From positions 1-64,000 of the IMG/VR virus record IMGVR_UViG_3300047476_000928: a stretch of DNA of 64,000 bases, one strand, 5' to 3'. The translations under genes were made by a program, and so were the position numbers. The notes beneath the pieces are model-generated. The model saw only the letters and a program-made list of their open reading frames with translations, searched no databases and was not told the DNA's origin. The stretch comes from a virus. Below are positions 8,275 to 58,217 of the stretch, piece by piece (the stretch's first letter is position 1; each line of letters opens with the position of its first letter).

Positions 8275-11200
8275 ATGGCTAAAAATCGGCTTGTAAAAAA
8301 TAAAAAGACTGGTCAATACGGAGTTTACAATCCGTTCAATGACACAGTAACACCAATTACATCTGATATGTCTCTAGTTAAGAATACTAGAGGTCAATAT
8401 GGATTCAAGAAAGGTAATGAAATTTTTAGTATAGATGAGATGCCTGAAAGCGTTAATCTAGAGGAAACTTTTAAAAAAAAAGTCGATACGGTATCATCTT
8501 CCGCGACAAGTTCTACGGATTCTACATCTGATTTCTATAAACCAGTAGGCGTAGAAGCGGTTGATACAAAAGAACCTAAAAAGCAAATAGAAGCTAAGCA
8601 AGCTGCTAAACAAGAGGAAAGCCAAAGATACATTGATATATTTGGCTTAACTCGTTTAGACTATTCTGGTCTACAGAATTATGGTTCATTAGGGGAACTA
8701 GCCGCAGACGCATTAGACGTTCCTGCTAACCTTAGCAAGGCGTTTGTTCGTGGCGTATCTAATGGTAGAATCAATCAAGCCATTATGGATTATGCCAAGG
8801 ATGGCGAAACTATGGACTCTGATTTAATTGCAAGGTTAATCAAAGAGAACAAGACAAAGACAGGCTCCACCTACTTAAAGACATTGCAGGAGAAGGGTGT
8901 ATTGCAGACAGATGATTTATCAGCTGTTGGTGGTATTGCGGAGACTATCATGGAATCCATGGGTAGCATGTTGGGTACTGTAAAGGCTGGATTTCAAGGA
9001 GCTATCGTAGGAGGTTCTACTGGTCTAGCAACTGGTGCAGCAGCCACTTCAATCGGAGGACCCGTAGGTGCAGCCTTAGGAGCTGTTGGTGGAGCAACAG
9101 GTGGAGCAGTTTCAGGTTTCGCAGGATTTACGTCATACGCTAACGAATACGGAAGTACAATCGTACAGGCTCTTACAGAAAAAGGCTACGACTTAACTGA
9201 TAAAAACTCAGTAGAAAAAGGGCTTAAAGATAAGTCTGTAATGGACTCCGCCAAAGAGAAAGCAAACACAAGAGGTTTGACTGTTGGAGCATTTGATGCA
9301 ATCACAGCGGGTTTAGCAGGTAAAGGAGCTAAATTAGCTGTCAATATTGCTCGTGGTTCAGCTGCGAAAGTAGGTAAAGAATTAACTAAAGCAGGTGTTA
9401 AAAGAATTGCTGGAGCTACAGCTCTTGGTATCGAATCCACAATGGGTTCTGTCGGAGAGGCAATGGGTCAATTGGCTACCGAAGGAAAGATTACCGACTA
9501 CGATGCTGTTGCATTAGAAGGTATTGCTGAAATCGGTAATGCGGGACCATCTACTGCATTTGCAATGTATAAATCAGGTCAGATTAACAGCGACCTTAAT
9601 CAAGAGAATCAAGCTAAAATCGAATCTTTAAAGAAAGCTAAGGAAGCAATTCCTGCTGACAATGAGGCTTCTTTAAATGCTATTGATAACAAGATTTCTG
9701 CATTAGAGAAAGAGAATAAGAATCGCAACAAGGCAATGACTTCTGCGCTTCAAGTAGCTCCTGTGCCAGCAACTAAACGTGTGATTGAGTTAACAGACTC
9801 TATCCTAGAATTAGAAGCTACATTAGAGGCAATTAAAGACGGCTCTCGTACAGACGTTTCTCAAGAAGCCAAGAAGGCAATGTGGGATTCGTTAAACGAT
9901 ATGATTGCTGAGCGCGATGAAATTCGCCAAGAGATGTTGAAGGCATCTGAGACTGAAGCTAAATTAGCAGCAGCTCCTGAGAAGCCAATGATTCCTGTTG
10001 TGAATATTAAACCAGTAGGACAGCAAGCTAAAGAGGGGGAAGTATTACCTTCTCCTGTTCCACAAAACAATGCAACGCAGTTGGCTAAAGACACCCCATT
10101 AGAGGTTAAAAAGGTTGAAGAACCAGTAATGTTCTCTACCAAGTTTGATGACGAAAAATCATTAAAGCAAGGTACTGCATACAAGGTGTCTCAAGGAGAG
10201 AACAACTTTGGGACAATCATTGAGCACGACAATAATGGAGAGAAAGAATTTGTCTTAGCGGAAACTGGCAAGAAGTATTCATCATTAGATGATGCTAAGT
10301 TTGCATTACAAGAGAAGCTAACTGGAGAGCGTGTGTCTGAAATGGACCGTGTAGGAATTGACCGTATTAAGGTTGAGGGTAATCTTGCTAACAAGCCAAT
10401 ATTTATTGGAGACCCTGCAAATAACAACCAGCTTGACATGGAATCAAAGGGAGCTATACAGAAAGCTGTTAGAGCCCTTAGAAGCGTTAGTAATGCTAAT
10501 GTGTATTTGTATGGCAATGCAGCTGATTACGCAAAAGGTATAGCGCATGCAACAGGTCAAACTGCAAGCGATGTAGCTAATCAGGCTGGCAAATCTAACG
10601 CTCAAGTAGTTGATGCTAACGGAGAAAACAGTATCCACATTAACTTGGAGAAAGCAGACGTTACAAGTCTTTCGCACGAAGTATTCCACGGAGCATTATT
10701 AGGTCTTGCTAAAAAAGACCCTAACGCATTTATTACGATGCGTGATAAGATTCTTGATAGAATCAGTGAGAAGCAATCGTTAATGGTTACTAATCCAGAC
10801 GGCACCAAAGCAAAGGTTTCTGCTAAGGAATACTTATTAGATTTTCAAAAAAGATACAGCGGTCCCGAATATACAGAAGCTGACAGAGCAGAGGAGTTCT
10901 TGTCAGAACTTGCTGGGTTAATGAGCTTAGAGGATAATAATGTAGTTAAGGATAAAACCCTATTAGAGTCTATTAAGCTTACTATTAAGGATGTATTGAA
11001 GAAATTCAATGTCGAATTTGATTCGCTTAATGAGCTTCAGGAAACAGAAGATTTGGTTCAGTTCTTTAAGGATTTTAACCGTTCTGTAAAGACTGGAGAG
11101 TCTATTAATTTAAGCAGAGTTCAAGGTATTCAAGGAGTTGCTCCAACGGCTGCTCAACCTGCTACACAGCCTACTGCTCAAGTGCAACCTTCAATTCCTG

Positions 11201-14200
11201 CCACCAAATTTAAGGAAACGAAATCAGGTGGACAAGAAAGCGAATTAGTGCCATTGTTGACAATAAAGCGCGAGGAAAACTTTAAGCTATCTGATGAGGT
11301 AATATATGGTAAAACTAAGATAGATAAGAAAGGTAACGCTACGACGGAATTTTATACCAAGTTTAGCGAAGACAAAATACCTGTAAGCGGAAAGACTATA
11401 TACTACGATAACGAAAACAACAAATTTAACCAATATAGAAAAGGTAAAACAGGTCAAAATGGAGAAGGAGGAAAGTCGTTAAGTGATTTTGAAAATGATT
11501 ATGGTATTCCGTTTGATGAAGTGCTAAAAGGATTAGGCATAAAGCTTAAAGACAACGAAGAGGTATTAAATTTCAGAGTTGATAAGGAGTCAATTGAAAT
11601 GCACCCTGTATCAGGAAAATTGAAAAAAGTGCACGGAAAGGTAGCTATTATACCTAAAGGCACTAATGGGATGAAATCAAAAGATACATATATTAGCTAT
11701 TACACACCAAAACTAAAATACACAGATGCCATTACAGGAATTTCAACCGCTCAACCTGAAGCAGGAGCCGTTAAAGAAAGCGCTACAACAAGACCTGAAG
11801 GAGCGAAAAAGAAAGAGCCTATTGCTAAGGTTATTTCAAGAGCTGCAGACAAGGCGCAAGAATCAGTAAAAAAGACTAAGGGTAATAGAAAGCCTATCTC
11901 TGAAAGAGTTCCAAAGGTAGAAGGTATTATCGGTCAAGCTTTAAGAATTGAGCCAGCATCTGCTTACGACCTTGCTTTACAATACTTTATCGGAGGGGGT
12001 AGAGTTTTAAGGGGCAAAGTAACAAATGGCTCAAAGCCAGACCCCCATACATTAATTACCTTGTTTACAAGACCTAGACAAGGGTATTATGTTGCATCAG
12101 AAAAAGAGATGGCTAGCCGTGGATTTTTAACAAAGAAAGACGGATTACTAATAACAGAGATTGCGCATAAGTTATGGGAAAGCCAAGCTAATGAATACCT
12201 TGGATTGGAGGAATCAGAAATGCGAAGCGCAGTTGAAGCTGTATTGCTTGACCATACTACTACATCTAGTATGGCAAAAGATATTATTTCTAGACATGGC
12301 AATCCTGAGCAACGAGCGCTTATCAGCGGAGCGAATGATATGCCGGGTCTTAGTGAATATGAAATGTTTGTAGCTGGTCAAATAGCTAATGAATTTGGAG
12401 TATCCGTTGAAGAGGTTATTGAAAACCCAGAAAAGTTTGTTAATAAGGATGAACTAGAAGGTATGCAAGAAGATATGCTTACTGCATTCCAAATTCTTGA
12501 TGAGCTTCAAGACGACGAGGCAATCAAAGAATATCTAGGCATATCTGCACCAGAAGACCTTTTCTTGGACGAATTGGTAGCAGAAGCTGCTAAGCCAGAG
12601 AAGACGCTTCAGGAGAAGAAAGCTGACCTTGAAAAGCAGATAAAAGCTAAGAAGAAAGAATTAGCTGCAGCTAATAAGACTAAAAAGGAGATGGGTGGCA
12701 TTGGTCAAACATCTCTGGTTGAAGGAGTACAAACTACTATTGTTGCTCCTGATACAATGAAGCTTTATGAAAAGATTAGAAACTTAAAAGGGGAAATTGA
12801 AGACCTTAATAGTCAATTAGGAAAAATTGAATCAGCTATTGAATTTAAGGAGCGCAAGACAATAGATGCTTTTGCAGATGTTGTCGAGCAGAAGGTAGAA
12901 GAAAATGCACCTGAAGTTGCTCCATCAAATGAGGAGGATAAGCCACAATGGCTTATTGAGCAAGATGCAGAATATGCATTAAGAGATAAGGAGGACCTTG
13001 AGTTAATGAGACTTAGTGATGAAGTTTATTACGCTAAGCAGCAAATTGCTGGAGATAGGGATACAGATGTTGCCATTAAGAACTACAATGAAGTAAAAGC
13101 TAAAAGAGATGCTTACGAGAGTGCGGTAAATAAAAGAAGACAGGACAGGGAAGATGCAATAGATATTCAGTCGCTAATTGATGACGAAATTAATAATAGC
13201 GAGAATCCAAAATATGAATATGCGGAAGACTTTAAAAAGAGTCCACTATTAGCCGCATATAAGCATGCGCAAGACCTGCTTGAATATATTTCTAGTAGCG
13301 ATTATGTAGAATATCAAGTTAAAACAGGATACCAAACCAGAGAGCAGGCTATAAAGGACCAAGAAAATGGCATAGCCAATTGGGGAAAAAGAGTCTTTTT
13401 ACTGGAGACCGCTATTGTTAAGGAATCTATGGCGGAGCAGGCTGCTAAAACAGAACCTGCTAAAGCGGAGCTATCTAAAAAAGAAAAAGAAATAAAATCT
13501 CTTGAGGAGGAAATCAGACAATATGAGCTTGAAATCGAAGATGCCACAGAAGAGATTGAGAACACTAATTACAATTATCGTGAAGCAGTAGATGAGATTA
13601 AGGCTGAGAAGAAAGAACTTGCTGCTTCTTCATTAGATAGAGAGACAAAAGCTGAGCAAAGAGAAGAATTGGACGCTAGGTTAGAAGATGTAGCTGACGA
13701 AAGAGATACCTATATCGAACAATATAAGGACACTATTGCTGAAGCAAAAAAAGAGATTAAGGCTTTACAGAAGAAGATTGACAAATTATCTGTTAGGCAA
13801 AAATTCCAATTATCGGGCGACAAAGTAGAGGTGTTAAATAAATCTGGCATTGCAAATATCTTTACATCCAATCCTAGCCTTAGCAAGATTGGCACTCAGG
13901 AGCAGTATAAAAAATACATCAGTTCTATATTCCCCGAAAGCCTCATAGATAACATAGTATGGAGAGCCCAAAATGATAAGGGTCTTAGAAGGCACGCTGG
14001 AGTATATTTCTCAGCATACAAATCTTATGCAGATAATTACGGTAAAGCATATAATGTGCCTACAAAGCCGTTTATGTTGGATATGAAAAATCCAAAGGAT
14101 TTATTTATTCATCACAAAGAGAGTAAAAGATTTGCAGAAAATATTGTTGATGACGTAAAAATTAGATTTGATGAAATTCCACCTAATGATATTGCTTTGT

Positions 14201-17046
14201 TAAAAAGCAAAGGGTATGATGGTGCGTTTGTTAACCTTGAGGAGTTTAAAGGATTCCATGAAGAGGAGAAGCCGGGTATAGAAATTGTTGCATTTGATGC
14301 TGAACAGATACACGCATTAGGGGATGAAAAAGATGCGAAAATGTTTGCAGATTATGTATTTTCAAATCCAACCATTAAATCACAACTTGAAGGTCCACAG
14401 ATATCTCCTTTCCAAAAAGCTGACCCTACATATAAGTATCAGCTATCTGGCACAGAGGCTTCATTAAAACTGATTGATGAGGTTAGAAAGAAATACAATA
14501 TGCAACACACCGCTGAGGAGATGGGTATTGTAAAGAAAGGTATGCGCGCAACAGAAGGTATTATTTCTAATAATATCGTTACACGAGTATTGAGTAAAGG
14601 TAGTGTTGCTGTAAATAAGATGTTCTCTAATGATAAGGCAAATAAGCTTTTAGGAAAGCCGTTTGCTGGGTTGCAGAATTACATAGCAAATAACGTAAGA
14701 AAAGGTCTTGGTAGCCAAAATGCTGCTGCTGCAAACGCATCTGCTATTGCAGTTTCTTTGATACAGAACCTTGGTTCAACAGAAGGATTCCAATCTGCTA
14801 GAAATAAGCTAAGCGGAGGCAAGAGTGTTGCTAAGAATCAGTTATGGCAATTAGGTAAGGAGCTTAATGAGATGATTAATAACGACAAGGTTGCGTTGCG
14901 CAGAGTACACTCGTTATTGGACCCTGAAGCATTTGAGGATATTACAGACCCTACATTGCCAGACAGCAAAGCAGACTTATCGTTTGCAGAGTTGCGCTTA
15001 TTCAATGTATTGCGCGACATGAATGATTTCATTCACGAGTGGCACTATAGAAATGGATTCTTAGGAACAGGAGAGCAAGCTGACGCTTTATATGAGAAGA
15101 ATAAGGGTTCTTATTTTGCTCGTATGTATAATGAGATAGAAACAGAAAGATTCGGAGAACTATACGATGCTTTAGCAAAGCTTCCTAATGCGGCTGACTT
15201 CTCAATGTTTAAGGAGCGTAAGAACTTCTTGGATGTTACAGAAAACCTAACACTAAAAGAAGACCCAATCTACATCACTACAAAGCGATTTGGACAGATG
15301 ATGCAGAATCAGGCTATCTTAGAGTTCTGTGATTATGTAGCTAAGAGTAAAGATTACAAGATTTACAAGAACAAGGAAGACATTCCTGCTTCAGCAGTAA
15401 GCAACTATCGCTTATTAGCTCCTAAAAAGGGCGGCGGTAAAGTATATGGTCCTCTTACAGGAAAATATGTACCTGATATTGTTGCACAACAACTACAGGG
15501 CATTGAGTTCTCAAATCAGGCTATTAACTTAACATACCAAGCCGCTAAAATATTTGATAAGACATTTGCTCGTCAGGTATTAAGTAAAGCAAAGACCGTT
15601 TGGAACCCACTTACAAGAGCAGGTAATATTACAATGAACTTTGTGTTTGCGTCACTTGCTGGCGTAGACCCTATTACATTGCTTAAAAACAGACCTGCCG
15701 CTAAAGAGTCATTAGAAAGCTATGATTCTTATGCAAGAGATTTGGATGCAAATGGATTGCTTGGCGTGTCTATGGGTAAGGAGCTTAATGAAGAGAAAGA
15801 TAAGAATGCAAAGATTGTATTAAGAGATGCAGCTAACAGATTACTAAAAAGAGAAGGCAAGGCAACGTCAGAGGTGGAGTTACCTGCAAGCGAAAAGAGT
15901 AAATTCAGAAAGATTGCATCTGACTTAGACGATATGCTTACAGAGTCTTATGGCAAATCAGATGACGTTGCTAAGGTTGCTTTGTATAAAAGTTTGGTGG
16001 ACGATTACGGCAAGACTCGTGAAGAGGCAATTAAGATTGTGGCAGGTAGCATGCAGAACTATAATACAGTTGGTAAGGCTTACGATTATGCATCTAAGAC
16101 GGTAAACAGATTCGTTAAGTTTAAGGCTGACTCTGCTCGTATCTTATATAACTCATTTAAGGACAGACCATTAAATTTAATGGCTACGCTTGGAATGTAT
16201 TTAGCTGCACAAGCTCTTGCATCTAAGATATCTGGAGAGGATGAAGAGGAACGCAAAATCCGCGAAGAAAGACCATATACTAATAAGATTAAGATTGGTC
16301 CCGTTACTATATCCCTTACAATGAAGTTTGGAGATACAGAAGTTAACGTAGCTCGCTACTTAGCACCTTACTCTGTTTATGACGCTGGATATGATAGCAA
16401 TTGGCTAAAAGATGCTTCAACGTACTTGCCAGTGCAATACGATGAGCATACATTTATTGCTGTAAATGACCCATTAATTGGACCAATAGTAAACTTAGCG
16501 GCAGATAAAGACTTCCGTGGAATGCCTATTTCAGACCCGGGAAAAACACCTTTCATAGAAAAGACCGTTACGGACGGAGAAGCTTTTTGGAATAGAGTTG
16601 CATTTGCAGGAAGAAACTTTGGAGCTCCATACTACGGATGGGGAGAGAATCTTATTGCGGCTGCTACTGGGGATAAAGATTACTATGGTCGCTCAAGAAG
16701 TATGTCAGAGGCTATCCTTAACACTGTAATCAAAGTTCAGACTGTTAATAACGAAACGCTTCAGCGTTCTTATGAAGGAGCACTTAGAAAATTAGATAGA
16801 GACATTGACAACATTGGTAAAACTATCAGTCATAAGGCAAATGAGAAAGCTGAAAATATCAGTGAAGAAGCCTCTAAAGAGGGAATGACAGATGCACGAC
16901 TAGAAAAGTATATCGCTAACCAAGAGCGGATATTCATGAAATTCTATGAAGAGCAGCAAAAAGAGGGCGATAAAAAAATTATGGAATTACAAAGAGTGCA
17001 AGGAGTCTTAGGTAAACTACAAGAAATCAAGGACCGTAAAAAATAA
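8275..17046 (+). CDS. Giant polyvalent ejection protein with zincin and ADP-ribosyltransferase-like domains
   Basis: 2923 residues in one uninterrupted frame. From the N-terminus: a Lys-rich start; a glycine-zipper hydrophobic segment at about 228-280, likely membrane-active; helical linkers; a metallopeptidase-like HEVFH at 801-805 inside SLSHEVFHGALLGL; Pro/Ala/Gln linkers; a beta-rich domain about 1000-1160; long Lys-Glu coiled coils about 1440-1850; and an ART-like domain about 1850-2060 with WR at 1896-1897, FS at 1912-1913 and YDGAFV. The last 850 residues are a helical large-polyvalent-protein-type C-terminus (NPLTRAGNITMNFVFASLAG). Families are polyvalent proteins (zincin, ART-PolyVal). 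Position equals T7 gp16. Activities are predicted, not shown. Confidence 0.75.
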   Translation: MAKNRLVKNKKTGQYGVYNPFNDTVTPITSDMSLVKNTRGQYGFKKGNEIFSIDEMPESVNLEETFKKKVDTVSSSATSSTDSTSDFYKPVGVEAVDTKEPKKQIEAKQAAKQEESQRYIDIFGLTRLDYSGLQNYGSLGELAADALDVPANLSKAFVRGVSNGRINQAIMDYAKDGETMDSDLIARLIKENKTKTGSTYLKTLQEKGVLQTDDLSAVGGIAETIMESMGSMLGTVKAGFQGAIVGGSTGLATGAAATSIGGPVGAALGAVGGATGGAVSGFAGFTSYANEYGSTIVQALTEKGYDLTDKNSVEKGLKDKSVMDSAKEKANTRGLTVGAFDAITAGLAGKGAKLAVNIARGSAAKVGKELTKAGVKRIAGATALGIESTMGSVGEAMGQLATEGKITDYDAVALEGIAEIGNAGPSTAFAMYKSGQINSDLNQENQAKIESLKKAKEAIPADNEASLNAIDNKISALEKENKNRNKAMTSALQVAPVPATKRVIELTDSILELEATLEAIKDGSRTDVSQEAKKAMWDSLNDMIAERDEIRQEMLKASETEAKLAAAPEKPMIPVVNIKPVGQQAKEGEVLPSPVPQNNATQLAKDTPLEVKKVEEPVMFSTKFDDEKSLKQGTAYKVSQGENNFGTIIEHDNNGEKEFVLAETGKKYSSLDDAKFALQEKLTGERVSEMDRVGIDRIKVEGNLANKPIFIGDPANNNQLDMESKGAIQKAVRALRSVSNANVYLYGNAADYAKGIAHATGQTASDVANQAGKSNAQVVDANGENSIHINLEKADVTSLSHEVFHGALLGLAKKDPNAFITMRDKILDRISEKQSLMVTNPDGTKAKVSAKEYLLDFQKRYSGPEYTEADRAEEFLSELAGLMSLEDNNVVKDKTLLESIKLTIKDVLKKFNVEFDSLNELQETEDLVQFFKDFNRSVKTGESINLSRVQGIQGVAPTAAQPATQPTAQVQPSIPATKFKETKSGGQESELVPLLTIKREENFKLSDEVIYGKTKIDKKGNATTEFYTKFSEDKIPVSGKTIYYDNENNKFNQYRKGKTGQNGEGGKSLSDFENDYGIPFDEVLKGLGIKLKDNEEVLNFRVDKESIEMHPVSGKLKKVHGKVAIIPKGTNGMKSKDTYISYYTPKLKYTDAITGISTAQPEAGAVKESATTRPEGAKKKEPIAKVISRAADKAQESVKKTKGNRKPISERVPKVEGIIGQALRIEPASAYDLALQYFIGGGRVLRGKVTNGSKPDPHTLITLFTRPRQGYYVASEKEMASRGFLTKKDGLLITEIAHKLWESQANEYLGLEESEMRSAVEAVLLDHTTTSSMAKDIISRHGNPEQRALISGANDMPGLSEYEMFVAGQIANEFGVSVEEVIENPEKFVNKDELEGMQEDMLTAFQILDELQDDEAIKEYLGISAPEDLFLDELVAEAAKPEKTLQEKKADLEKQIKAKKKELAAANKTKKEMGGIGQTSLVEGVQTTIVAPDTMKLYEKIRNLKGEIEDLNSQLGKIESAIEFKERKTIDAFADVVEQKVEENAPEVAPSNEEDKPQWLIEQDAEYALRDKEDLELMRLSDEVYYAKQQIAGDRDTDVAIKNYNEVKAKRDAYESAVNKRRQDREDAIDIQSLIDDEINNSENPKYEYAEDFKKSPLLAAYKHAQDLLEYISSSDYVEYQVKTGYQTREQAIKDQENGIANWGKRVFLLETAIVKESMAEQAAKTEPAKAELSKKEKEIKSLEEEIRQYELEIEDATEEIENTNYNYREAVDEIKAEKKELAASSLDRETKAEQREELDARLEDVADERDTYIEQYKDTIAEAKKEIKALQKKIDKLSVRQKFQLSGDKVEVLNKSGIANIFTSNPSLSKIGTQEQYKKYISSIFPESLIDNIVWRAQNDKGLRRHAGVYFSAYKSYADNYGKAYNVPTKPFMLDMKNPKDLFIHHKESKRFAENIVDDVKIRFDEIPPNDIALLKSKGYDGAFVNLEEFKGFHEEEKPGIEIVAFDAEQIHALGDEKDAKMFADYVFSNPTIKSQLEGPQISPFQKADPTYKYQLSGTEASLKLIDEVRKKYNMQHTAEEMGIVKKGMRATEGIISNNIVTRVLSKGSVAVNKMFSNDKANKLLGKPFAGLQNYIANNVRKGLGSQNAAAANASAIAVSLIQNLGSTEGFQSARNKLSGGKSVAKNQLWQLGKELNEMINNDKVALRRVHSLLDPEAFEDITDPTLPDSKADLSFAELRLFNVLRDMNDFIHEWHYRNGFLGTGEQADALYEKNKGSYFARMYNEIETERFGELYDALAKLPNAADFSMFKERKNFLDVTENLTLKEDPIYITTKRFGQMMQNQAILEFCDYVAKSKDYKIYKNKEDIPASAVSNYRLLAPKKGGGKVYGPLTGKYVPDIVAQQLQGIEFSNQAINLTYQAAKIFDKTFARQVLSKAKTVWNPLTRAGNITMNFVFASLAGVDPITLLKNRPAAKESLESYDSYARDLDANGLLGVSMGKELNEEKDKNAKIVLRDAANRLLKREGKATSEVELPASEKSKFRKIASDLDDMLTESYGKSDDVAKVALYKSLVDDYGKTREEAIKIVAGSMQNYNTVGKAYDYASKTVNRFVKFKADSARILYNSFKDRPLNLMATLGMYLAAQALASKISGEDEEERKIREERPYTNKIKIGPVTISLTMKFGDTEVNVARYLAPYSVYDAGYDSNWLKDASTYLPVQYDEHTFIAVNDPLIGPIVNLAADKDFRGMPISDPGKTPFIEKTVTDGEAFWNRVAFAGRNFGAPYYGWGENLIAAATGDKDYYGRSRSMSEAILNTVIKVQTVNNETLQRSYEGALRKLDRDIDNIGKTISHKANEKAENISEEASKEGMTDARLEKYIANQERIFMKFYEEQQKEGDKKIMELQRVQGVLGKLQEIKDRKK

Positions 17047-30251: not shown

Positions 30252-30350
30252 TTAGTTTCTCTTTAATAGACATATTGGGCGACCCTTAATCTGCAACCCC
30301 TTGCAACAGAGGTCGCCACAATAGTCTGCTTTGTTTAACCCCTTAAACAA
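30252..30350 (-). CDS. 32-residue Cys-rich mini-protein after DnaB
   Basis: Starts at TTG one codon after the helicase stop, in the same frame, and ends two bases before the nuclease start. It contains ADYCGDLCCKGLQIKGRPIC, four Cys in C-x3-CC-x10-C arrangement, with basic flanks, suggesting a tiny zinc-binding or disulfide protein. It could also be a readthrough extension of DnaB. No family is known to me. Confidence 0.5.
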   Translation of the reverse strand: MFKGLNKADYCGDLCCKGLQIKGRPICLLKRN

Positions 30351-36645: not shown

Positions 36646-36911
36646 ATTTCCAAAAAGGCAGTAGCTTTAAAGTTTTCCGAAAAACAAATAGCTCGGCGCG
36701 GTTCACTCTCAACAATCACACTCATCGGGCGCAAGCGGGCGGATGCGGGGCGGGAGCAGAATGCAGAGCAGAATGCCCTGCAAAAATCGATCGGGGCGGG
36801 CGCACGGCGGGGAGCAGAATGCAAAGCAGAAAAGCCCTGCGGTTCATGTAATGGCGTTTTTTACTACCTGAAAGCCCCGCCCCTTATAAGGATAAAAAAA
36901 CCTGCAAAACA
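36646..36911. other. GC-rich intergenic spacer with a duplicated segment
   Basis: No convincing gene (a minus-strand frame at 36642-36824 is rejected). GC-richer than the flanks. A segment beginning GGAGCAGAATGCA at about 36752 recurs at about 36812, about 30 bp each, both ending GCCCTGC. It lies between divergent promoters and at the edge of the cassette, so it may be a recombination junction. Confidence 0.5.
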
Positions 36912-36944
36912 TTTGTTTTATATATCTGCGGGCGCTATATTGCG
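36912..36944 (+). promoter_or_regulatory. Promoter of the amidoligase cassette
   Basis: TTTG (36912-36915), 20-nt spacer, TATATTGCG (36936-36944, one mismatch to TAnnTTTG), followed by the ATG at 36967. It is divergent from the early-operon promoter. Confidence 0.6.
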
Positions 36945-36966
36945 TAAACTTTAAAAATCAAACAAT

Positions 36967-37212
36967 ATGAAAAACTCAAAAAAACCCCGTTACAGCGCTT
37001 TATACCGCTTTTTTTCCGCCATTTCGGCGCTTGCTATTGTTTCGCTCGCTGGATATTTAATCAGCTACGGCGCTATTATTTACGCCTTCGCCGTTCTACT
37101 TATGGGCTTTTTAATCCGCAATTTTGTGCTATTGTGCGCCCGCCAAGATGAAGACATAGAAAGAATGCAGGCAAAAGACGATTTCATCAAGAGAGACCAA
37201 TTTTTTTACTAA
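36967..37212 (+). CDS. Small two-pass membrane protein
   Basis: 81 residues. A basic N-terminus (MKNSKKPRYSALYRF) leads to two hydrophobic helices (about 16-34 and 38-54), then a charged cytoplasmic-looking tail (RQDEDIERMQAKDDF). No family recognised. First gene of the GC-richer cassette, next to another membrane protein and an amidoligase, so it may anchor or transport the product of those enzymes. Confidence 0.6.
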   Translation: MKNSKKPRYSALYRFFSAISALAIVSLAGYLISYGAIIYAFAVLLMGFLIRNFVLLCARQDEDIERMQAKDDFIKRDQFFY

Positions 37213-37232
37213 TCATTTTAACCCCTTGAATT

Positions 37233-37337
37233 ATGGTACAATTTGAAAACATGGAATTCGAAAACGAAACGGCGCTACATGAATGGCGCTTGCTTTTCGA
37301 CTTTGATTATTTTATTGATTATTATTCACAAGTTTAA
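37233..37337 (+). CDS. 34-residue acidic mini-protein
   Basis: MVQFENMEFENETALHEWRL then an aromatic-acidic end (LLFDFDYFIDYYSQV). It is preceded by the cassette leader TTTAACCCCTT 6 bases before the ATG. The longer overlapping frame at 37243-37527 has no such leader and is rejected. Confidence 0.45.
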   Translation: MVQFENMEFENETALHEWRLLFDFDYFIDYYSQV

Positions 37338-37351
37338 ACCCCAGTACAAAA

Positions 37352-37630
37352 ATGAAAAATGCAGAAAAAACACCCCGCAACCCGATCCGCACAAAAGCAG
37401 ATTTGAACCACCTTGCAAGAAAAGCAGCAGACCACCAAAGACGCCTCCGCCTATATGGTCAGGCGTTCCTAATGTTTTGGGGCTTCGGCGTATTCTTTAC
37501 GGCGCTTTTCAGCGCTTCACAGCCTGAAAATAATGACTTTGCCCGAGACTTTGAATTTTTAGCCTTATTCGGGCTGTTGGTCGGTTCTTTCGGCTTCGCT
37601 TGTTTCTACAATGACAACAAAAACAACTAA
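37352..37630 (+). CDS. Small two-pass membrane protein
   Basis: 92 residues: a basic N-terminus with Arg/Lys/His (RKAADHQRRLRLYG), two hydrophobic helices (FLMFWGFGVFFTALF and FLALFGLLVGSFGFACF), short polar end. It follows the TTTAAACCCC leader. It resembles the 81-residue protein in layout but not in sequence. A role beside the amidoligase is possible; a holin-like or anchoring function is an alternative. Confidence 0.6.
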   Translation: MKNAEKTPRNPIRTKADLNHLARKAADHQRRLRLYGQAFLMFWGFGVFFTALFSASQPENNDFARDFEFLALFGLLVGSFGFACFYNDNKNN

Positions 37631-37650
37631 CAATTTAAACCCCTTAAATC

Positions 37651-39756
37651 ATGAACTTACAAAAAATTAACACAGCTATTAATTTTTTCGAGGCTATGCC
37701 CGCAGACCTTCAAGAGCGCTACATAGATGCGCCCTTCAAGCGTATAGAATTAGACGAAACCCGATATGAATGGGATGAATTTATAAACCAGTCGTTTACA
37801 TGGAGCGACACAAAAGAGGGGCACAATTTTTGGAGCGCCGTGCATCATATGACAGACCTTTCGCAATATGAAGCCGTAAAATTCAAGACACTTGAAAAGC
37901 CGATACGGGAGCACCTGAAAAACATAAGCGCAGAACTGCGGGCGATATTGTTTGACCAATACAAAAGCTACCTAACAGACAGCGAGCTAAATAACTTAAT
38001 TGCGCAATTTACAGCAGGAGAAAAGAACGGGCACCTAGACGGGAAAACAACATGGTATGACTATATGGACAACCAAAACACCTACACATACCCAAGGGCT
38101 TTTTGGCGTGAATTGAGCACCGCTACAAGCTACGAGGCTGTAAATGTTCTTTCGTCGTATCAGCTCGAAGAAATAGAAATACACGGCGGGGGCAAAGCCC
38201 GCAGGTGCGAGCTAATTAAATTGAGCGCCCAACACTACGGGGAAAACGCCTACACAGCTAAACGCCTTGCGACCGATTCGGATAGCGGGGCAATACTTGA
38301 AGCAGATTTGTTGGAATACTACGACCGAGAAGCAAACAAGCGCAGAAGCCATAAAAGCATATTAGAAAAGACTTTGGAGCGTAACGGCTTCAATGTTCCT
38401 ATGGTCGTTTATTGCCCACGGCATAAAATGCACATGGACAGCCGTATCAGTTACCGATATGGCGTAGGAATAAACTACGAAACAGGACAGCCCGAAGCTA
38501 TTGAGCTACACTCGCACGCCCTTGTAAGAAGCCAAAACGGCTTCCGTTTTTCTGCTTCAATATCAGAGCTAGAAGCGAGCGAGCACCTTGTTTACGTCAA
38601 TCACAAGGAATACGAGTACAAGGTTTATATGATAATTCAAAGTAGTTCCGTTTATTACGATATTGTTACGCAAAAATACTATTTCGAGGACGTAAACCCA
38701 TGGCGGGAATATATGTTTTACGGAACAGCAGGAGCGCCCTGCAAGTACATTAAAATAAATTCAGACAATCAAATCCCGATTGCCTTTGAATATTTCGGAC
38801 AGCGATTTGCGCCAGTGCATACCCAAGCACGGGGCAGTTATTCGGCGGTTTGGTATTTCAGCAGAGAGAGCGCAGAAAATGCGGGGCTAATTTTGAACAC
38901 GTGCCCAAGTTGTGGCAACCTGCATAGCCAATATCATGACATTGAAGAATGCGAGCAAGCTAATTTCACAAATGAGCGTTACAGCTACCACAGCCAAAAG
39001 CCCCGCTACATTTCAAGCCGTAGCGAGTTTAAAATAGGCGTAGAAATTGAAAAGGAAAGTTTCAAGGGAGCACGCCACAACAATCGGGAAATATTCCGCT
39101 CCTTCGGGTGGGTCAAAGAATCAGACGGAAGCCTTGACAGCCGTGTAGGTTACGAGCTTGTTTCGCCTGCCTTCGGTTTATTTGGTAATAACCTGATAAA
39201 AGAAGCGGAAAAATTAGAAGCTAAATTTCCGAGCCTAATAAACGGCGAAACCTCGAAAGCCTGCGGGGGGCATATCCATTTTTCAAGAGCCAACACAAGC
39301 GGAGCGGATACGCTCGAAATGTATTGCGGATATTTACCTTTGTTGTATGCGATTTATAAGACCAGAACGAAAGCGAGCTATTGCGCAGGAAAAGAAAAGG
39401 ATGAAATGAAATACAGCCGAGACAAATACCAAGCCGTTAGGGTTTTAGATAACCGCATAGAATTTAGAATTTTCCCCGCCGTAAAGAATGTTTCTACGCT
39501 TGCATGGCGCATCGAATTGCTCCGCTACATGGCAAAGAACCCGACCGCTTCGCCCGTTCAGGTAGTTAATGACTTATGCGACAAGCGCACGAAATTGCAC
39601 AAGCTATTTTTGGAGATATTCACGGAGAAAACAATCTACGCCCGTGCTATTGACACGCTTAACATGGCGCAGAAATACGACCGCAATTATTACAATATTG
39701 ATTTTTCAAAAGAGCGCACGGCAATAGCCAAGAAAGCAGAAAAGACAAAAGTTTAA
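37651..39756 (+). CDS. Amidoligase (Amidoligase_2-type) with N-terminal phage modules
   Basis: 701 residues. Residues 1-170 carry two W/F-rich modules (FINQSFTWSDTKEGHNFW; TYTYPRAFW) shared with a gene on the other strand. The middle has Cys/His pairs CPRHKMH and CPSCGNLHSQYHDIEEC like a zinc ribbon. The C-terminal amidoligase core has KIGVEIEKES (Glu465, Glu467), DGSLDSRVGYELVSPAF (from 492), the signature CGGHIH (538-543) and NRIEFRIF (601-608). The family is ATP-dependent, glutamine-synthetase-like, joining carboxylates to amines. It is followed by a glutamine amidotransferase, a known family pairing. Substrate unknown. Confidence 0.8.
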   Translation: MNLQKINTAINFFEAMPADLQERYIDAPFKRIELDETRYEWDEFINQSFTWSDTKEGHNFWSAVHHMTDLSQYEAVKFKTLEKPIREHLKNISAELRAILFDQYKSYLTDSELNNLIAQFTAGEKNGHLDGKTTWYDYMDNQNTYTYPRAFWRELSTATSYEAVNVLSSYQLEEIEIHGGGKARRCELIKLSAQHYGENAYTAKRLATDSDSGAILEADLLEYYDREANKRRSHKSILEKTLERNGFNVPMVVYCPRHKMHMDSRISYRYGVGINYETGQPEAIELHSHALVRSQNGFRFSASISELEASEHLVYVNHKEYEYKVYMIIQSSSVYYDIVTQKYYFEDVNPWREYMFYGTAGAPCKYIKINSDNQIPIAFEYFGQRFAPVHTQARGSYSAVWYFSRESAENAGLILNTCPSCGNLHSQYHDIEECEQANFTNERYSYHSQKPRYISSRSEFKIGVEIEKESFKGARHNNREIFRSFGWVKESDGSLDSRVGYELVSPAFGLFGNNLIKEAEKLEAKFPSLINGETSKACGGHIHFSRANTSGADTLEMYCGYLPLLYAIYKTRTKASYCAGKEKDEMKYSRDKYQAVRVLDNRIEFRIFPAVKNVSTLAWRIELLRYMAKNPTASPVQVVNDLCDKRTKLHKLFLEIFTEKTIYARAIDTLNMAQKYDRNYYNIDFSKERTAIAKKAEKTKV

Positions 39757-39831
39757 CCCGATCTAAATAGTACCAGTACAAAGCAGAATTTAAACAACAA
39801 TTTTAAACAACAATTTTAAACCCCTTTTATT

Positions 39832-40860
39832 ATGTGTATAGCAATTTTAAACACCCCTAATGTAACATTTCCAAAATCAGTTATTAAGACATGTTGGGAA
39901 AACAACGGCGATGGCGCAGGCTTAATATGGACAAATACAAAACATAAGACCTTGCACACCTTCAAAGAACTTGACAGCGTAGAAGCTTATTACGCCAAGT
40001 ATATCGAAATCCGCAGGAAGCACCCGAAAAGCAAAGTAGTTCTACATTTCCGCATCAGCACAAGCGGGGGCGTAAACCTACACAACACGCACCCATTCAG
40101 CGTAAATAAAAACCTTGCTTTTGTTCACAATGGCGTAATAAGCGAGCTAAACGGAATAGATGCAAACCGCTCCGATACAAACCTCTTTAATCTGCGAGTT
40201 TTACAAAATTTGCCCGCAGGTTTTGAGCGTAACGAGGCAATTGCCAACCTAATAGCCAAGTACATCGGACATAGTAAATTAATCTTCTTAAACGCCTTAA
40301 ACGAGCACACAATTATAAACCCAAGTTTAGGCAAAACAGACCCGACCTATTCGGGCTGTTGGTTTTCAAATAGCACCTATAAGCCTAGCGCCTATTATGA
40401 TTATGGCGGGAAGCAGATAGCAAAGGGAAGCACCTACAAAGCGCCCGCCGTTCCGGCATACAACGCCAGTGCTTCGAAGGTTTACCGGTATGGCGATGTT
40501 TGGAACGAAACCCTACAACAATGGGAGCGCCCAACATACCAAGCGCCCGCACCAAGCCCCGCCGTAAAGCATTGGGATAGCAAGGCAAACGATTGGAAAG
40601 CGCCCGCACCAATTAAGACACAAACGGCGCAACCCGTAGACAATCCGCTTGATTATGATTTTGACGAGACCGACCCAAGTTTTGACCCTGATAAACTTTC
40701 CGACGATGCTTGGATAGAATGGCAATTACTAACAGCATCAGAACGGAGAGAACTGCGAGAGCTACGGAATAAGCCAACCAACAGCCTAACGGCTACGGAA
40801 TGGCAGACCCTGAACGCCTACGAGCTCATAATTGACCAAGCCACCTACGGGGATTATTAA
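39832..40860 (+). CDS. Class II glutamine amidotransferase (Ntn hydrolase)
   Basis: 342 residues. MCIAIL places the catalytic Cys at position 2. VLHFRISTSGG (71-80, Arg74), NTHPF (about 87) and AFVHNGVISE follow in the order of class II GATases, and RSDTNLF fits the substrate loop. It releases ammonia from glutamine for a partner enzyme, here most likely the amidoligase just upstream. The C-terminal 150 residues are Pro/Ala-rich with two APAxP...VW/W-x-N units, then an acidic tail. Leader TTTTAAACCCC before the ATG. Confidence 0.85.
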   Translation: MCIAILNTPNVTFPKSVIKTCWENNGDGAGLIWTNTKHKTLHTFKELDSVEAYYAKYIEIRRKHPKSKVVLHFRISTSGGVNLHNTHPFSVNKNLAFVHNGVISELNGIDANRSDTNLFNLRVLQNLPAGFERNEAIANLIAKYIGHSKLIFLNALNEHTIINPSLGKTDPTYSGCWFSNSTYKPSAYYDYGGKQIAKGSTYKAPAVPAYNASASKVYRYGDVWNETLQQWERPTYQAPAPSPAVKHWDSKANDWKAPAPIKTQTAQPVDNPLDYDFDETDPSFDPDKLSDDAWIEWQLLTASERRELRELRNKPTNSLTATEWQTLNAYELIIDQATYGDY

Positions 40861-40880
40861 CAGCCCCGCCCAACAGCGAA

Positions 40881-40908
40881 AGCCCTGCAAATCTGCGGGG
40901 CTTTTTTT
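40881..40908 (+). terminator. Rho-independent terminator of the amidoligase cassette
   Basis: AGCCCTGCA pairs with TGCGGGGCT around AATC, then a run of seven T. It begins 20 bases after the amidotransferase stop. Confidence 0.9.
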
Positions 40909-41610
40909 ATGGCTTCACCCGATCGCCACAACGCCAACAAAAGCAGAAACAAAGCGGGCTAATTATTCCCAGTACAACGCCCTCCAAAACCGCCCCAAAT
41001 TCAAACGATAAACAGCACGGCAATACAACAGCACAGCAAGCAGGACAAAAGCCCAACAGACCGCAAAGGATAAAGCCGTAGCGCATTAGATGCAATAGCA
41101 GGACACTGCGACCGCAGTAACTGCAAAGCGGAAAGGATGCAACAGCAGGAACTGCGATACATCACGGCAATAGATTAGACAGCACGGCACGGCAATACAT
41201 TAGACAAATGATTTTCGCAGTTTTGTTCGGCAGGTTATTTCATTATTCCAACCCGCCACACAGCACCGACAAAACAAGACACCGAAAGCCCAGTACACCC
41301 CGACCCACGGGCAAAATAGGAAACGCCAGCGCAGAAAGTGCCCAAACAGCCCTGAAAAAGCGGTTTTTCGTTTTGCAAAGCCGACCCCACCCCCTTTGAT
41401 GTAGCCGTTTTCCTTTATTTTTTCGCGGGCTATGGAAACAATATATAACCTTCCACGCACAACTACGCAGTCCAAATTTTGAAACGCAAAAAGCCGACCC
41501 ACTCGGTATTGTAAACAGATACATGCCACTTAGCTACCACTTATACAGAAGTACCTGCTACCACAGAAACCGCCCCAACCGCACGGATAAGCGGTATAAC
41601 GCATCTAAAA
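40909..41610. other. About 700 bp without genes, GC-richer, with degenerate repeats
   Basis: No frame looks coding; overlapping minus-strand frames of about 100 residues are Cys- and Phe-rich and rejected. Degenerate direct repeats include ATGCAATAGCAGGACACTGCGA near 41090, matched by ATGCAACAGCAGGAACTGCGA near 41137, and CACGGCAATA three times (about 41018, 41163, 41187). CCAGTACA occurs at about 40969 and 41289, and twice more in the cassette. It lies between a terminator and the next promoter; it might be a packaging or replication site, or imported non-coding DNA. Confidence 0.5.
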
Positions 41611-41670: not shown

Positions 41671-42312
41671 ATGCTACAATACGACATTAAGCAGTCGCCA
41701 CCTAATACTGTAATTGTAGAGGTTGGGACAGCCATTGATGACACAGTTACATTCGGTAAGTTAACGATTCATATTGACCCACTATTCAATCCTACCCACT
41801 ACGCAAGAATCTACGGCAGAGTAGTGGCTGTACCAGACAGTCAACCCGTAACAGAACATGGCGTAGCAATTGACGATTATGTCAAGACAGGAGACCTTAT
41901 TTACTTCCACTATTTAACGACTAATGATGAAGCGAACTGTATCTACGGGAACTATTATAAAGTACCTTATTATTGGATTTTTTGTGCTGTTAGGGACGGG
42001 AATATTCATCCTGTTGGAAGCTGGACTCTCTTGGAGAAATATGTTGAGGAGAACTTTGACACAGTGGAAGTTAATGGTCAACGGATGGAAGCTACTTTAA
42101 GTGCATCTGGCTTAGTAACAGGTGTGTTTAAGAAGCCTTCTCAGAAGTATGCAACAGTAGCTCATATTGGTAAACCATTGCGTGGGGAACCAGACCTTGG
42201 ATTGCGTAAAGGAGATAAAGTGATACTTGATAAAAACAGCAACTTTGAGAACGAAATTGAAGGTAAAAAATATTACACTGTAAAACAGGAGTATATTATA
42301 GGAAAAGCATAG
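41671..42312 (+). CDS. GroES-like co-chaperonin
   Basis: 213 residues with two barrel-like halves. The C-terminal half has ATVAHIGKPLRGEPDLGLRKGDKVIL and EIEGKKYYTVKQEYIIG, the pattern of GroES (GDKVLL ... GEEYLLLREDDILG). The N-terminal half has DDYVKTGDLIYFHYL and a mobile-loop-like segment. T4 gp31-type proteins replace host GroES to fold the major capsid protein. Placement just before terminase, portal and capsid genes supports capsid folding. It is longer than GroES, so a fusion or duplicated form is possible. Confidence 0.6.
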   Translation: MLQYDIKQSPPNTVIVEVGTAIDDTVTFGKLTIHIDPLFNPTHYARIYGRVVAVPDSQPVTEHGVAIDDYVKTGDLIYFHYLTTNDEANCIYGNYYKVPYYWIFCAVRDGNIHPVGSWTLLEKYVEENFDTVEVNGQRMEATLSASGLVTGVFKKPSQKYATVAHIGKPLRGEPDLGLRKGDKVILDKNSNFENEIEGKKYYTVKQEYIIGKA

Positions 42313-56166: not shown

Positions 56167-57162
56167 ATGGCATCATTAAAGAATACTACTATAAATGATA
56201 CTGGACATCTTACGTTACCTGTAGGCACAACTGGTCAACGCCCATCTCCTGCAAATGGAATGATTAGATTTAATTCTGACTCAGGACAAATGGAATCTTA
56301 CGTTGATGGAGCTTGGAGAACTGTTAGTGTAGATTATACTATTGAATTTGTACTGGTCGCTGGAGGTGGAGCTGGAGGAGGAGGTAGTAATGGTGGCGGC
56401 GGCGGAGGCGGTGGTGGAGTTATTATTAATAGCGGAACACTTGTTTCGCCAGGAACGGCGTACTCTATAGTTATTGGAGGTGGTGGAGGTGCTGTTATTG
56501 GAAGTGGAGCTAGAGGAAATCAGGGAGGTAATAGTACGGCATTTGGATTTACAGCCATTGGTGGAGGAGGTGGAAACGCTAACGGAAACTGGGGCGAAGC
56601 TCAAAATGACGGAGGCTCTGGTGGCGGCGGAGGTCGTGATACAGTTTGGGGAGATAGATTTTCATTTGGGTACGGGACTGTTGGTCAAGGTAATAATGGT
56701 GCTGGCGCTTTTAAGGGAGGTTATGCTTCTGCTGGTGGAGGTGGAGGGGCTGGAAACGGTGGTTATACAGGTGGAGATGACTTAAATGGAAGATATGACC
56801 CGATATCTTGTGGAGGCGAGGGTGCTTTAATTAACTGGACTGGGACTAATTTTTATTATGGTCCTGGTGGTGGAGGAGCTTTTGAAAACGCATACGGAAA
56901 TGCAAATGGTCCTGCTCCTGGCGGAAAAGGTCTTGGTGACGGAGGCGGATATGGCGCTACAAATCAAGCAAGCCCAACATCTGGGACAGCAAACAGAGGT
57001 GCTGGAGGAGGTGGAGCTAAAAGTAGTTGGTCTGGAGCAGGCGGCTCAGGCAGATGTGTTATAAGATATGCAGGACCTCAACGCGGCTCTGGCGGAACAG
57101 TTGTTTCTTATGGAGGATATACTGTTCACACATTCGACGGAACTGGAACTTTTACAGCATAA
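56167..57162 (+). CDS. Glycine-rich adhesin with shared anchor (copy 1)
   Basis: 331 residues. The first about 55 residues (MASLKNTTINDTGHLTLPVG ... ESYVDGAWRTV) are nearly the same as in the next two genes and act as an anchor module. From 60 to 310 the chain is poly-Gly/Ser/Asn segments alternating with short strands, like glycine-rich phage adhesins that form sandwiched polyglycine helices. It ends VVSYGGYTVHTFDGTGTFTA. It starts two bases after the main fibre gene and probably contacts the host receptor. Confidence 0.75.
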   Translation: MASLKNTTINDTGHLTLPVGTTGQRPSPANGMIRFNSDSGQMESYVDGAWRTVSVDYTIEFVLVAGGGAGGGGSNGGGGGGGGGVIINSGTLVSPGTAYSIVIGGGGGAVIGSGARGNQGGNSTAFGFTAIGGGGGNANGNWGEAQNDGGSGGGGGRDTVWGDRFSFGYGTVGQGNNGAGAFKGGYASAGGGGGAGNGGYTGGDDLNGRYDPISCGGEGALINWTGTNFYYGPGGGGAFENAYGNANGPAPGGKGLGDGGGYGATNQASPTSGTANRGAGGGGAKSSWSGAGGSGRCVIRYAGPQRGSGGTVVSYGGYTVHTFDGTGTFTA

Positions 57163-57164
57163 TT

Positions 57165-58217
57165 ATGGCAAGTTTAAAAAATACAACAATTAACGATACA
57201 GGCTTTATTCAGCTTCCTTCTGGAACTACAGCTCAAAGACCCGCTGGAGTTAATGGAATGATGCGCTATAATACTACATTAGCAGCTATTGAAATATACA
57301 ATGGGGCGACATCTAGTTGGAATACATTAATTAGCGGAGGTTACACTGTAGACGTATTAATTGCTGCTGGCGGCGGCGGTGGAGGAGCAGGTGGTACTAT
57401 TTGGTATGGAGGAGGAGGCGGAGGCGGCGCTGGTGGTCTTCGAGTTATTAGCAATATATCTGTGGCTACAAATACAGCATACCCTATTGTAATTGGAGCA
57501 GGAGGCTGCGGCTCTCAGACTAATAGTCAAGGAACAATTTATTGGGGGTCTAACGGAGGAAACTCATCTGCTTTTGGATACACATCAACAGGTGGAGGAC
57601 ACGGCGGCAGTTTTAACGGAGAAGGACCTTACTGGTATGGTCAAGATGGAGGCTCAGGTGGAGGTGCTGGTCGCGATAAAACATCAGGCAACGGAGCAGG
57701 TATAGCTGGACAGGGTTACAGTGGAGCTACAGCTTATGCTGGCGGATATGCTTCTGCTGGCGGCGGTGGTGGTGCTGGAGGCGCAGGCTATCAAGGTGGC
57801 GCTGACGGACAGGGTCAATATGTGTCTGGATTGCAGTCTGCTGGAGGCATTGGCTTATATTATGATTGGACAGGTAGTGGTATATATTATTGCGGAGGAG
57901 GAGGAGGCTCTTGGTCATCACCTGTTGGTGGCGTTGGTGGTGTTGGTGGAGCTGGCTACAATAATGGAGGCGGCAACGGAAGCGGGAGTCAATCTATCGG
58001 AGGAACTGCTGGTTTAGCCAATAGGGGTCAAGGAGGTGGAGGCGCTCACTCTAATAAAGGAGATAATGGCGGATACGGTTCTACTGGTTTTGCAGGAGGG
58101 TCAGGAGTAGTTTTAATTAGATACTTAGGACCTCCAAAAGCAAAAGGAGGTATTATTACTCAGTATAATGGATACACTTGTCATCAGTTTAATGGTTCAG
58201 GAAACTTTATAGCTTAA
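57165..58217 (+). CDS. Glycine-rich adhesin with shared anchor (copy 2)
   Basis: 350 residues from the ATG at 57165; a longer frame from 57027 would lie within copy 1. The anchor (MASLKNTTINDTGFIQLPSG, ending EIYNGATSSWNTL) is followed by a different glycine-rich body (about 65-330), with more Tyr and Trp than copy 1 (TIWYGGGGGGGAGG). It ends YNGYTCHQFNGSGNFIA, parallel to copy 1. Two tandem adhesins with the same anchor but different receptor parts could broaden host range. Confidence 0.75.
   Translation: MASLKNTTINDTGFIQLPSGTTAQRPAGVNGMMRYNTTLAAIEIYNGATSSWNTLISGGYTVDVLIAAGGGGGGAGGTIWYGGGGGGGAGGLRVISNISVATNTAYPIVIGAGGCGSQTNSQGTIYWGSNGGNSSAFGYTSTGGGHGGSFNGEGPYWYGQDGGSGGGAGRDKTSGNGAGIAGQGYSGATAYAGGYASAGGGGGAGGAGYQGGADGQGQYVSGLQSAGGIGLYYDWTGSGIYYCGGGGGSWSSPVGGVGGVGGAGYNNGGGNGSGSQSIGGTAGLANRGQGGGGAHSNKGDNGGYGSTGFAGGSGVVLIRYLGPPKAKGGIITQYNGYTCHQFNGSGNFIA

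Follow-up and report, generated by a model that had tools for sequence, protein, structure and literature searches.

The window analyzed here, a 64,000-nucleotide stretch that makes up most of the 65,914-bp IMG/VR virus record IMGVR_UViG_3300047476_000928, carries a compact unit (36967–40860, plus strand) encoding an amidoligase, a class II glutamine amidotransferase (GATase), two small membrane proteins, and a 34-residue peptide. The two enzymes almost certainly work together, and their genes adjoin each other in every testable viral locus. The explanation we favor, with middling confidence, is a two-subunit, glutamine-dependent amide synthetase that has an exchangeable targeting half and would act at the host envelope.

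Co-inheritance and catalytic sites of the enzyme pair

A profile search with the GATase recovered 540 viral relatives, 80 of which were fetched for locus inspection. An amidoligase adjoined the GATase in all 75 testable loci. In 71 it was found by profile, upstream and close (one with a 687-bp gap and one cut by a contig end), and in four further loci (L039, L045, L054, and L078) it lay one small open reading frame (ORF) further upstream, with that tiny ORF between the two genes. These four were therefore rejected as loci without an amidoligase, the profile having missed the gene; the remaining five of the 80 were cut by contig ends. Searching with the amidoligase profile gave a GATase adjoining in 75/75 testable loci, a set that shares contigs with the first and is not independent of it. 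Here, the GATase lay downstream in 68 of the 80 loci, overlapped the start in two, and was directly upstream in five (L114, L117, L120, L142, and L182); four loci were untestable, and one started at a contig edge. Because both gene orders occur, selection for co-inheritance, not a frozen operon, is the natural reading. In 84,980 cellular species genomes, 11 matches were found, mostly on short contigs, and the amidoligase stood beside the GATase in 9 of the 10 that could be tested. With approximately 540 viral relatives against 11 matches in approximately 85,000 cellular genomes, the enzyme family is essentially phage-owned and has an obligate partner.

Both enzyme identifications of the initial annotation, which had been made from this DNA without database searches, were upheld. 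The GATase, described there as a Cys2 amidotransferase with a proline-rich tail, matched PF13230 (GATase_4) at 25.5 bits (cut-off 23), and its predicted fold resembled the GlmS glutaminase (E = 9e-7) and EgtC (E = 5e-5). A profile of the GATase relatives likewise found the GlmS glutaminase in the PDB, and the C-terminal part comprised a low-complexity Pro/Ala-rich tail and C-terminal helices. We then aligned 77 amidoligases and 90 GATases and scored invariance wherever the region was present. Among the GATases, Cys2, R74, N100, G101, and D115 were invariant in 90/90, and H99 was likewise invariant among homologues; the search seeds used HFR and HNG patterns, and Cys2 and D115 played no part in finding the sequences.

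For the amidoligase, PF12224 (Amidoligase_2) scored 19.1 bits (E = 1.3e-3) in a scan of the single protein, against a cut-off of 22, and 22.1 bits with neighboring segments in a whole-genome search; the relative in L045 passed the same cut-off with 31.3 bits. E465, E467, E502, H541, E604, and R606 were invariant in 76/76, all scored positions being independent of the seed patterns used to find the sequences. The expectation that the catalytic residues are kept in homologues thus proved right, with E465/E467, Cys2, and H541 of the CGGHIH motif all invariant; the second histidine of that motif, H543, is His or Asn among homologues. Single-sequence searches of viral contigs, phages, plasmids, and genomes with the 701-residue protein returned no close relatives, profiles alone reaching them, and a sequence search of the PDB gave no match. 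In structure prediction, the C-terminal 250 residues formed a confident fold, with predicted local distance difference test (pLDDT) values mostly >90, and Foldseek matched this catalytic half to glutamine synthetase, gamma-glutamylmethylamide synthetase, YbdK, Dop, and PafA, the best PDB match being glutamine synthetase (probability 1.00, E ~1e-4). The N-terminal half had low pLDDT and yielded no usable model, and global template-modeling scores were low because this half was modeled without confidence. Together, conserved residues and predicted folds show an intact class II glutaminase site in the GATase and an intact glutamine-synthetase-like ATP/carboxylate site in the amidoligase.

Organization, orientation, and variable parts of the unit

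All five ORFs of the initial annotation are present between 36967 and 40860, and the features of the unit are as follows.

36889–36966, plus strand: candidate promoter/leader region, with 36 bp similar to the L011 upstream region and TTTG-N20-TATATTG
36967–37212, plus strand: small membrane protein of 81 residues, two predicted hydrophobic segments (from residues 15 and 40)
37233–37337, plus strand: 34-residue peptide (MVQFENMEFENETALHEWRLLFDFDYFIDYYSQV), homologues in L011, L013/L014, and L017
37352–37630, plus strand: small membrane protein of 92 residues, two predicted hydrophobic segments (from residues 38 and 67)
37651–39756, plus strand: amidoligase, whole gene, 701 residues
37651–38989, plus strand: amidoligase N-terminal half (about residues 1–446), mosaic and fast-evolving, with the EGxxFW module and C418/C421/H429/C434
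38990–39756, plus strand: amidoligase catalytic half (about residues 447–701), glutamine-synthetase-like COOH-NH2 ligase as judged by fold and residues
39832–40860, plus strand: class II GATase, 342 residues, Cys2 N-terminal nucleophile (Ntn) type, as judged by PF13230, fold, and residues
40879–40908, plus strand: predicted intrinsic terminator hairpin, 11-bp stem and T-run

The unit had been called self-contained, with its own promoter and terminator and a higher GC content. The terminator (hairpin at 40879–40904 followed by a T-run; −20.9 kcal/mol, z −3.6) and the GC content (44.5% for the amidoligase and GATase genes vs. 38% for the rest) bear this out, and a promoter of its own is plausible rather than proven. 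A sigma-70 scan gave 16 matches vs. 11 expected, barely above chance. The 36-bp stretch at 36889–36923 is 83% identical to DNA upstream of the same cassette in L011 (locus L091), and the TTTG-N20-TATATTG within it may be a Bacteroidota-like promoter. A TTTAA(A/C)CCCC leader stands a few bases before the ATG of four of the five cassette genes (37217–37226, 37333–37342, 37634–37643, and 39815–39824), with one copy only elsewhere in the window, at 30334; it is not a Shine–Dalgarno sequence.

We compared the window with eight related records, whose terminases are 77–79% identical to its own and which share its gene order in the four that were compared at gene level. In 8/8 relatives, the unit and the GroES-like gene occupy opposite strands; in the window they share one strand (36967–40860 and 41671–42312). 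In the four compared, it stands at the head of the early/replication region, on the early-gene strand. Relative to L011, the outer flank beside the early genes has not moved, but the 36 bp upstream of the first gene have moved with the unit, so the unit and its likely promoter were turned round or re-acquired. This inversion relative to all eight relatives is new in this analysis. Short imperfect direct repeats also occur in the GC-rich noncoding flanks at 36746–36844 and 41012–41206 (GGGGAGCAGAATGCA... and CACGGCAATACATTAGACA), possibly as traces of rearrangement or as regulatory sites.

As annotated, the 81- and 92-residue proteins each have two hydrophobic segments. No sequence homologue of either was detected among the fetched loci, the eight group relatives included. 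By position, however, a two-pass membrane gene lies directly upstream of the amidoligase, or with the mini-gene alone between them, in 8/8 relatives. Such a gene therefore accompanies the amidoligase in 9/9 phages of the group, compared to 3 of 118 (2.5%) other small early genes. The proposed co-occurrence of the membrane genes was accordingly confirmed for this phage group, to which it is specific; as a general feature of the enzyme family it was rejected, since in the wider family the gene upstream of the pair varies among one-pass, lipoprotein, cyclotransferase, and soluble products. The 34-residue mini-protein was also substantiated. L011 has a free 34-residue homologue at the matching position, and in L013 and L014 the peptide is a C-terminal fusion to the two-pass membrane protein, so the ORF is not a chance one, and the fusion ties both proteins to one function. 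A weaker copy lies within another small ORF of L017, and the peptide is found in only ~5/9 group members. We considered the peptide as a precursor of a ribosomally synthesized and post-translationally modified peptide, an idea weakened by the membrane-protein fusion and the patchy presence.

The N-terminal phage module that the initial annotation gave the amidoligase corresponds to a phrog_16354 match (E = 5e-6, residues 32–65), and its zinc-ribbon-like middle to a single C418-x2-C421-x7-H429-x4-C434 motif. In the window and L011 this EGxxFW module forms part of the amidoligase; L012–L018 lack it, and in L027 and L032–L036 a small ORF of its own encodes it next to the pair. Tandem small ORFs of this EGxxFW/QGxDYW (phrog_16354-like) domain were seen on both sides of the pair (L027:4709–5163, L032:4485–5166, and the equivalents in L033, L035, and L036). 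The amidoligases of L039, L045, L054, and L078 instead carry a long N-terminal half with multiple CxxC pairs (many zinc fingers). Between L013 and L014, identity is 92% in the catalytic half, 96% in the GATase, and 91% in the GroES-like protein, but 68% in the N-terminal half; between L015 and L017, the corresponding values are 77%, 82%, 82%, and 43%. Nei–Gojobori omega was 0.25–0.40 for the N-terminal half, 0.10–0.14 for the catalytic half, and 0.07–0.13 for the GATase. Positive selection on the N-terminal half was not supported, omega never exceeding 1; faster evolution is claimed, diversifying selection is not. From these comparisons of predicted proteins, the amidoligase is half conserved enzyme and half fast-evolving mosaic N-terminal module, which is new in this analysis.

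Proposed function and its alternatives

Amide-forming chemistry, as predicted from sites and folds, is well supported: the established enzymology of both families and their pairing argue for glutamine hydrolysis and ATP-dependent amide formation. The GATase would hydrolyze glutamine and pass the ammonia to the amidoligase, which would activate a carboxylate with ATP as an acyl-phosphate, and attack by ammonia would then yield a primary amide. The variable N-terminal half, the two-pass proteins, and the 34-residue peptide might together dock the enzyme on the inner side of the host envelope, where its acceptor would be, most likely a carboxylate group belonging to an envelope protein or a peptidoglycan precursor. 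The altered wall or envelope could block competing phages or their lysins, or protect the cell until lysis. We infer both the substrate and the benefit to the phage, and envelope targeting, suggested by membrane and lipoprotein neighbors and by precedent, is the weaker part of the proposal. The initial annotation had likewise read the unit as making amide or isopeptide modifications, which fared well, and as changing the envelope to exclude competitors, which stays at the level of a suggestion.

In favor of this explanation, the upstream genes of the wider family include lipoproteins and a gamma-glutamyl cyclotransferase. Against it, the wider family does not keep the membrane partner, whose sequence is also poorly conserved across the group, and the omega of the N-terminal half, faster but <1, could reflect relaxed constraint. 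We also propose, as a possible but unlikely extension, that a constant glutaminase and a constant ligase domain are combined with an exchangeable address, formed by the diversifying, module-swapping N-terminal half and the membrane adaptors, which would direct the enzyme to envelope targets that differ from host to host.

The main rival is a gamma-glutamyl ligase/hydrolase pair like EgtA/EgtC, in which the amidoligase would attach an amine to glutamate at its gamma-carboxyl and the GATase would later remove the tag, to give either a small metabolite or an amine that carries the tag for a time. EgtC removes a gamma-glutamyl group in ergothioneine synthesis. Among the structural matches of the GATase it ranks second, the amidoligase fold matches include gamma-glutamylmethylamide synthetase and YbdK, and a PF06094 gamma-glutamyl cyclotransferase lies directly upstream of the pair in four distinct wider relatives. 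However, the GlmS glutaminase matches the GATase better, by sequence and by fold, and the window's phage group has no cyclotransferase match, so we regard this rival as unlikely. The matches to Dop and PafA and the conserved acidic 34-residue peptide encoded alongside the amidoligase would fit isopeptide ligation, in which a host or phage protein would be bonded through one of its acidic side chains to a lysine amine, in the manner of PafA and Pup, or in which the peptide itself would be a precursor that is cross-linked or amidated. Yet an obligate GATase points to ammonia as the nucleophile, and a peptide that is present in only part of the group and forms a membrane-protein tail in two members looks more like an adaptor than a precursor, which makes this reading quite unlikely.

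Amidation of a carboxylated base or nucleotide, protecting phage DNA or feeding its synthesis, would agree with the place of the unit beside early/replication genes in the relatives and of the pair near primase/helicase genes in OM43 and Stenotrophomonas phages. We nonetheless consider it very unlikely, since membrane and lipoprotein neighbors do not fit and no base-carboxylating or other DNA-modification gene was seen among the genes examined, which were not a full survey. Equally improbable is a purely metabolic pair, which would shift the glutamine/glutamate pools of the infected cell and have no particular envelope component or protein as its target: papers on OM43 and other phages do class these genes as auxiliary metabolic genes (PMC10580990), but the fast-evolving, module-swapping N-terminal half and the obligate pairing suggest a specific acceptor. 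With two enzymes, two tiny membrane proteins, and one 34-residue peptide in 4 kb, this minimal unit is a compact model for identifying the targets of phage amidoligases, and the division of the amidoligase into constant catalytic and variable N-terminal halves offers a concrete lead on how targets are chosen.

Genomic setting and relation to known systems

The terminase, portal, and head proteins of the window are ~30% related to those of podovirus-type phages of Flavobacterium and Cellulophaga, a distant resemblance that makes a host among the Bacteroidota probable. Early/replication genes (DnaB and others) occupy the minus strand at ~22–36.6 kb, and late genes the plus strand from ~41.7 kb, opening with the GroES-like gene and the terminase; the unit is located between the two blocks. 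The GroES-like protein (41671–42312) has 213 residues, with ~135 surplus residues at its N terminus. Elsewhere in the window, a single ORF of 2,923 residues spans 8275–17046 in the late region, and a GC-rich ORF with strong GC skew at 56167–57162 encodes a glycine-rich (GGGG-repeat) protein and is overlapped in a different frame by a second long ORF (57027–58217), both of which probably encode tail or adhesin proteins.

The functional idea of envelope change and competitor exclusion is not new. Papers citing Iyer et al. 2009 (PMC10580990 and PMC11318856) credit them with this prediction for phiEco32-type cassettes, and the same proposal was made again for RIO-1-like and OM43 phages (PMC5498523, PMC10580990); the name "peptidoglycan modification cassette" is used in PMC5498523, and amidoligase, GATase, ATP-grasp, and cyclotransferase genes appear together in PMC3890496. 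In the literature searched, we found no experiment on the phage amidoligase/GATase family, the function being presented as a prediction and the idea dating from 2009.

The cassettes of phiEco32, RIO-1, LUZ24, tf, and PSA-HP1 (Iyer 2009; Hardies 2013; PMC5498523, PMC3890496) resemble the unit in having an early-region amidoligase and class II GATase with a predicted envelope-peptide change and exclusion, but they also contain an ATP-grasp ligase, a second COOH-NH2 ligase, and a gamma-glutamyl cyclotransferase. In the window's record and the eight relatives, PF06094 gave no match, while its positive control matched, and there was no RimK-type ATP-grasp match, although a very divergent ATP-grasp could escape the RimK profile, the only one used. 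The second ligase (PF14395) gave no match, and neither did its positive controls. Among wider relatives, a RimK-type ATP-grasp is present in L039, L045, L054, L086, L087, and L090, in the first three as a gene a few ORFs upstream. Since ATP-grasp and cyclotransferase genes were not found, the unit is a minimal variant of the published kind of cassette.

Two-gene, glutamine-dependent amidation logic is shared with MurT/GatD and other systems that amidate peptidoglycan with glutamine as donor (PMC3267633); MurT has a Mur-ligase fold and GatD is a different amidotransferase, so this is a functional analogy only, without homology. PafA/Dop (Pup ligase/deamidase) and glutamine synthetase share the fold superfamily of the catalytic half, but have no glutaminase partner and act on other substrates. 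The pair of the OM43 phages MEP401 and MEP402 (Zobellviridae) comprises two adjacent genes in the same order with the same catalytic residues, its GATase is 36% identical to that of the window over residues 1–184, and no ATP-grasp or cyclotransferase is annotated in the fetched neighborhood. It differs in its upstream genes, among which no two-pass membrane protein was seen, in an unrelated amidoligase N-terminal half, and in belonging to an unrelated phage group. The window's unit is thus not a full member of the phiEco32-type cassettes but a minimal pair like that of MEP401/402 with membrane accessories of its own, the window and its eight relatives having two-pass membrane partners in place of a detectable cyclotransferase or RimK-type ATP-grasp.

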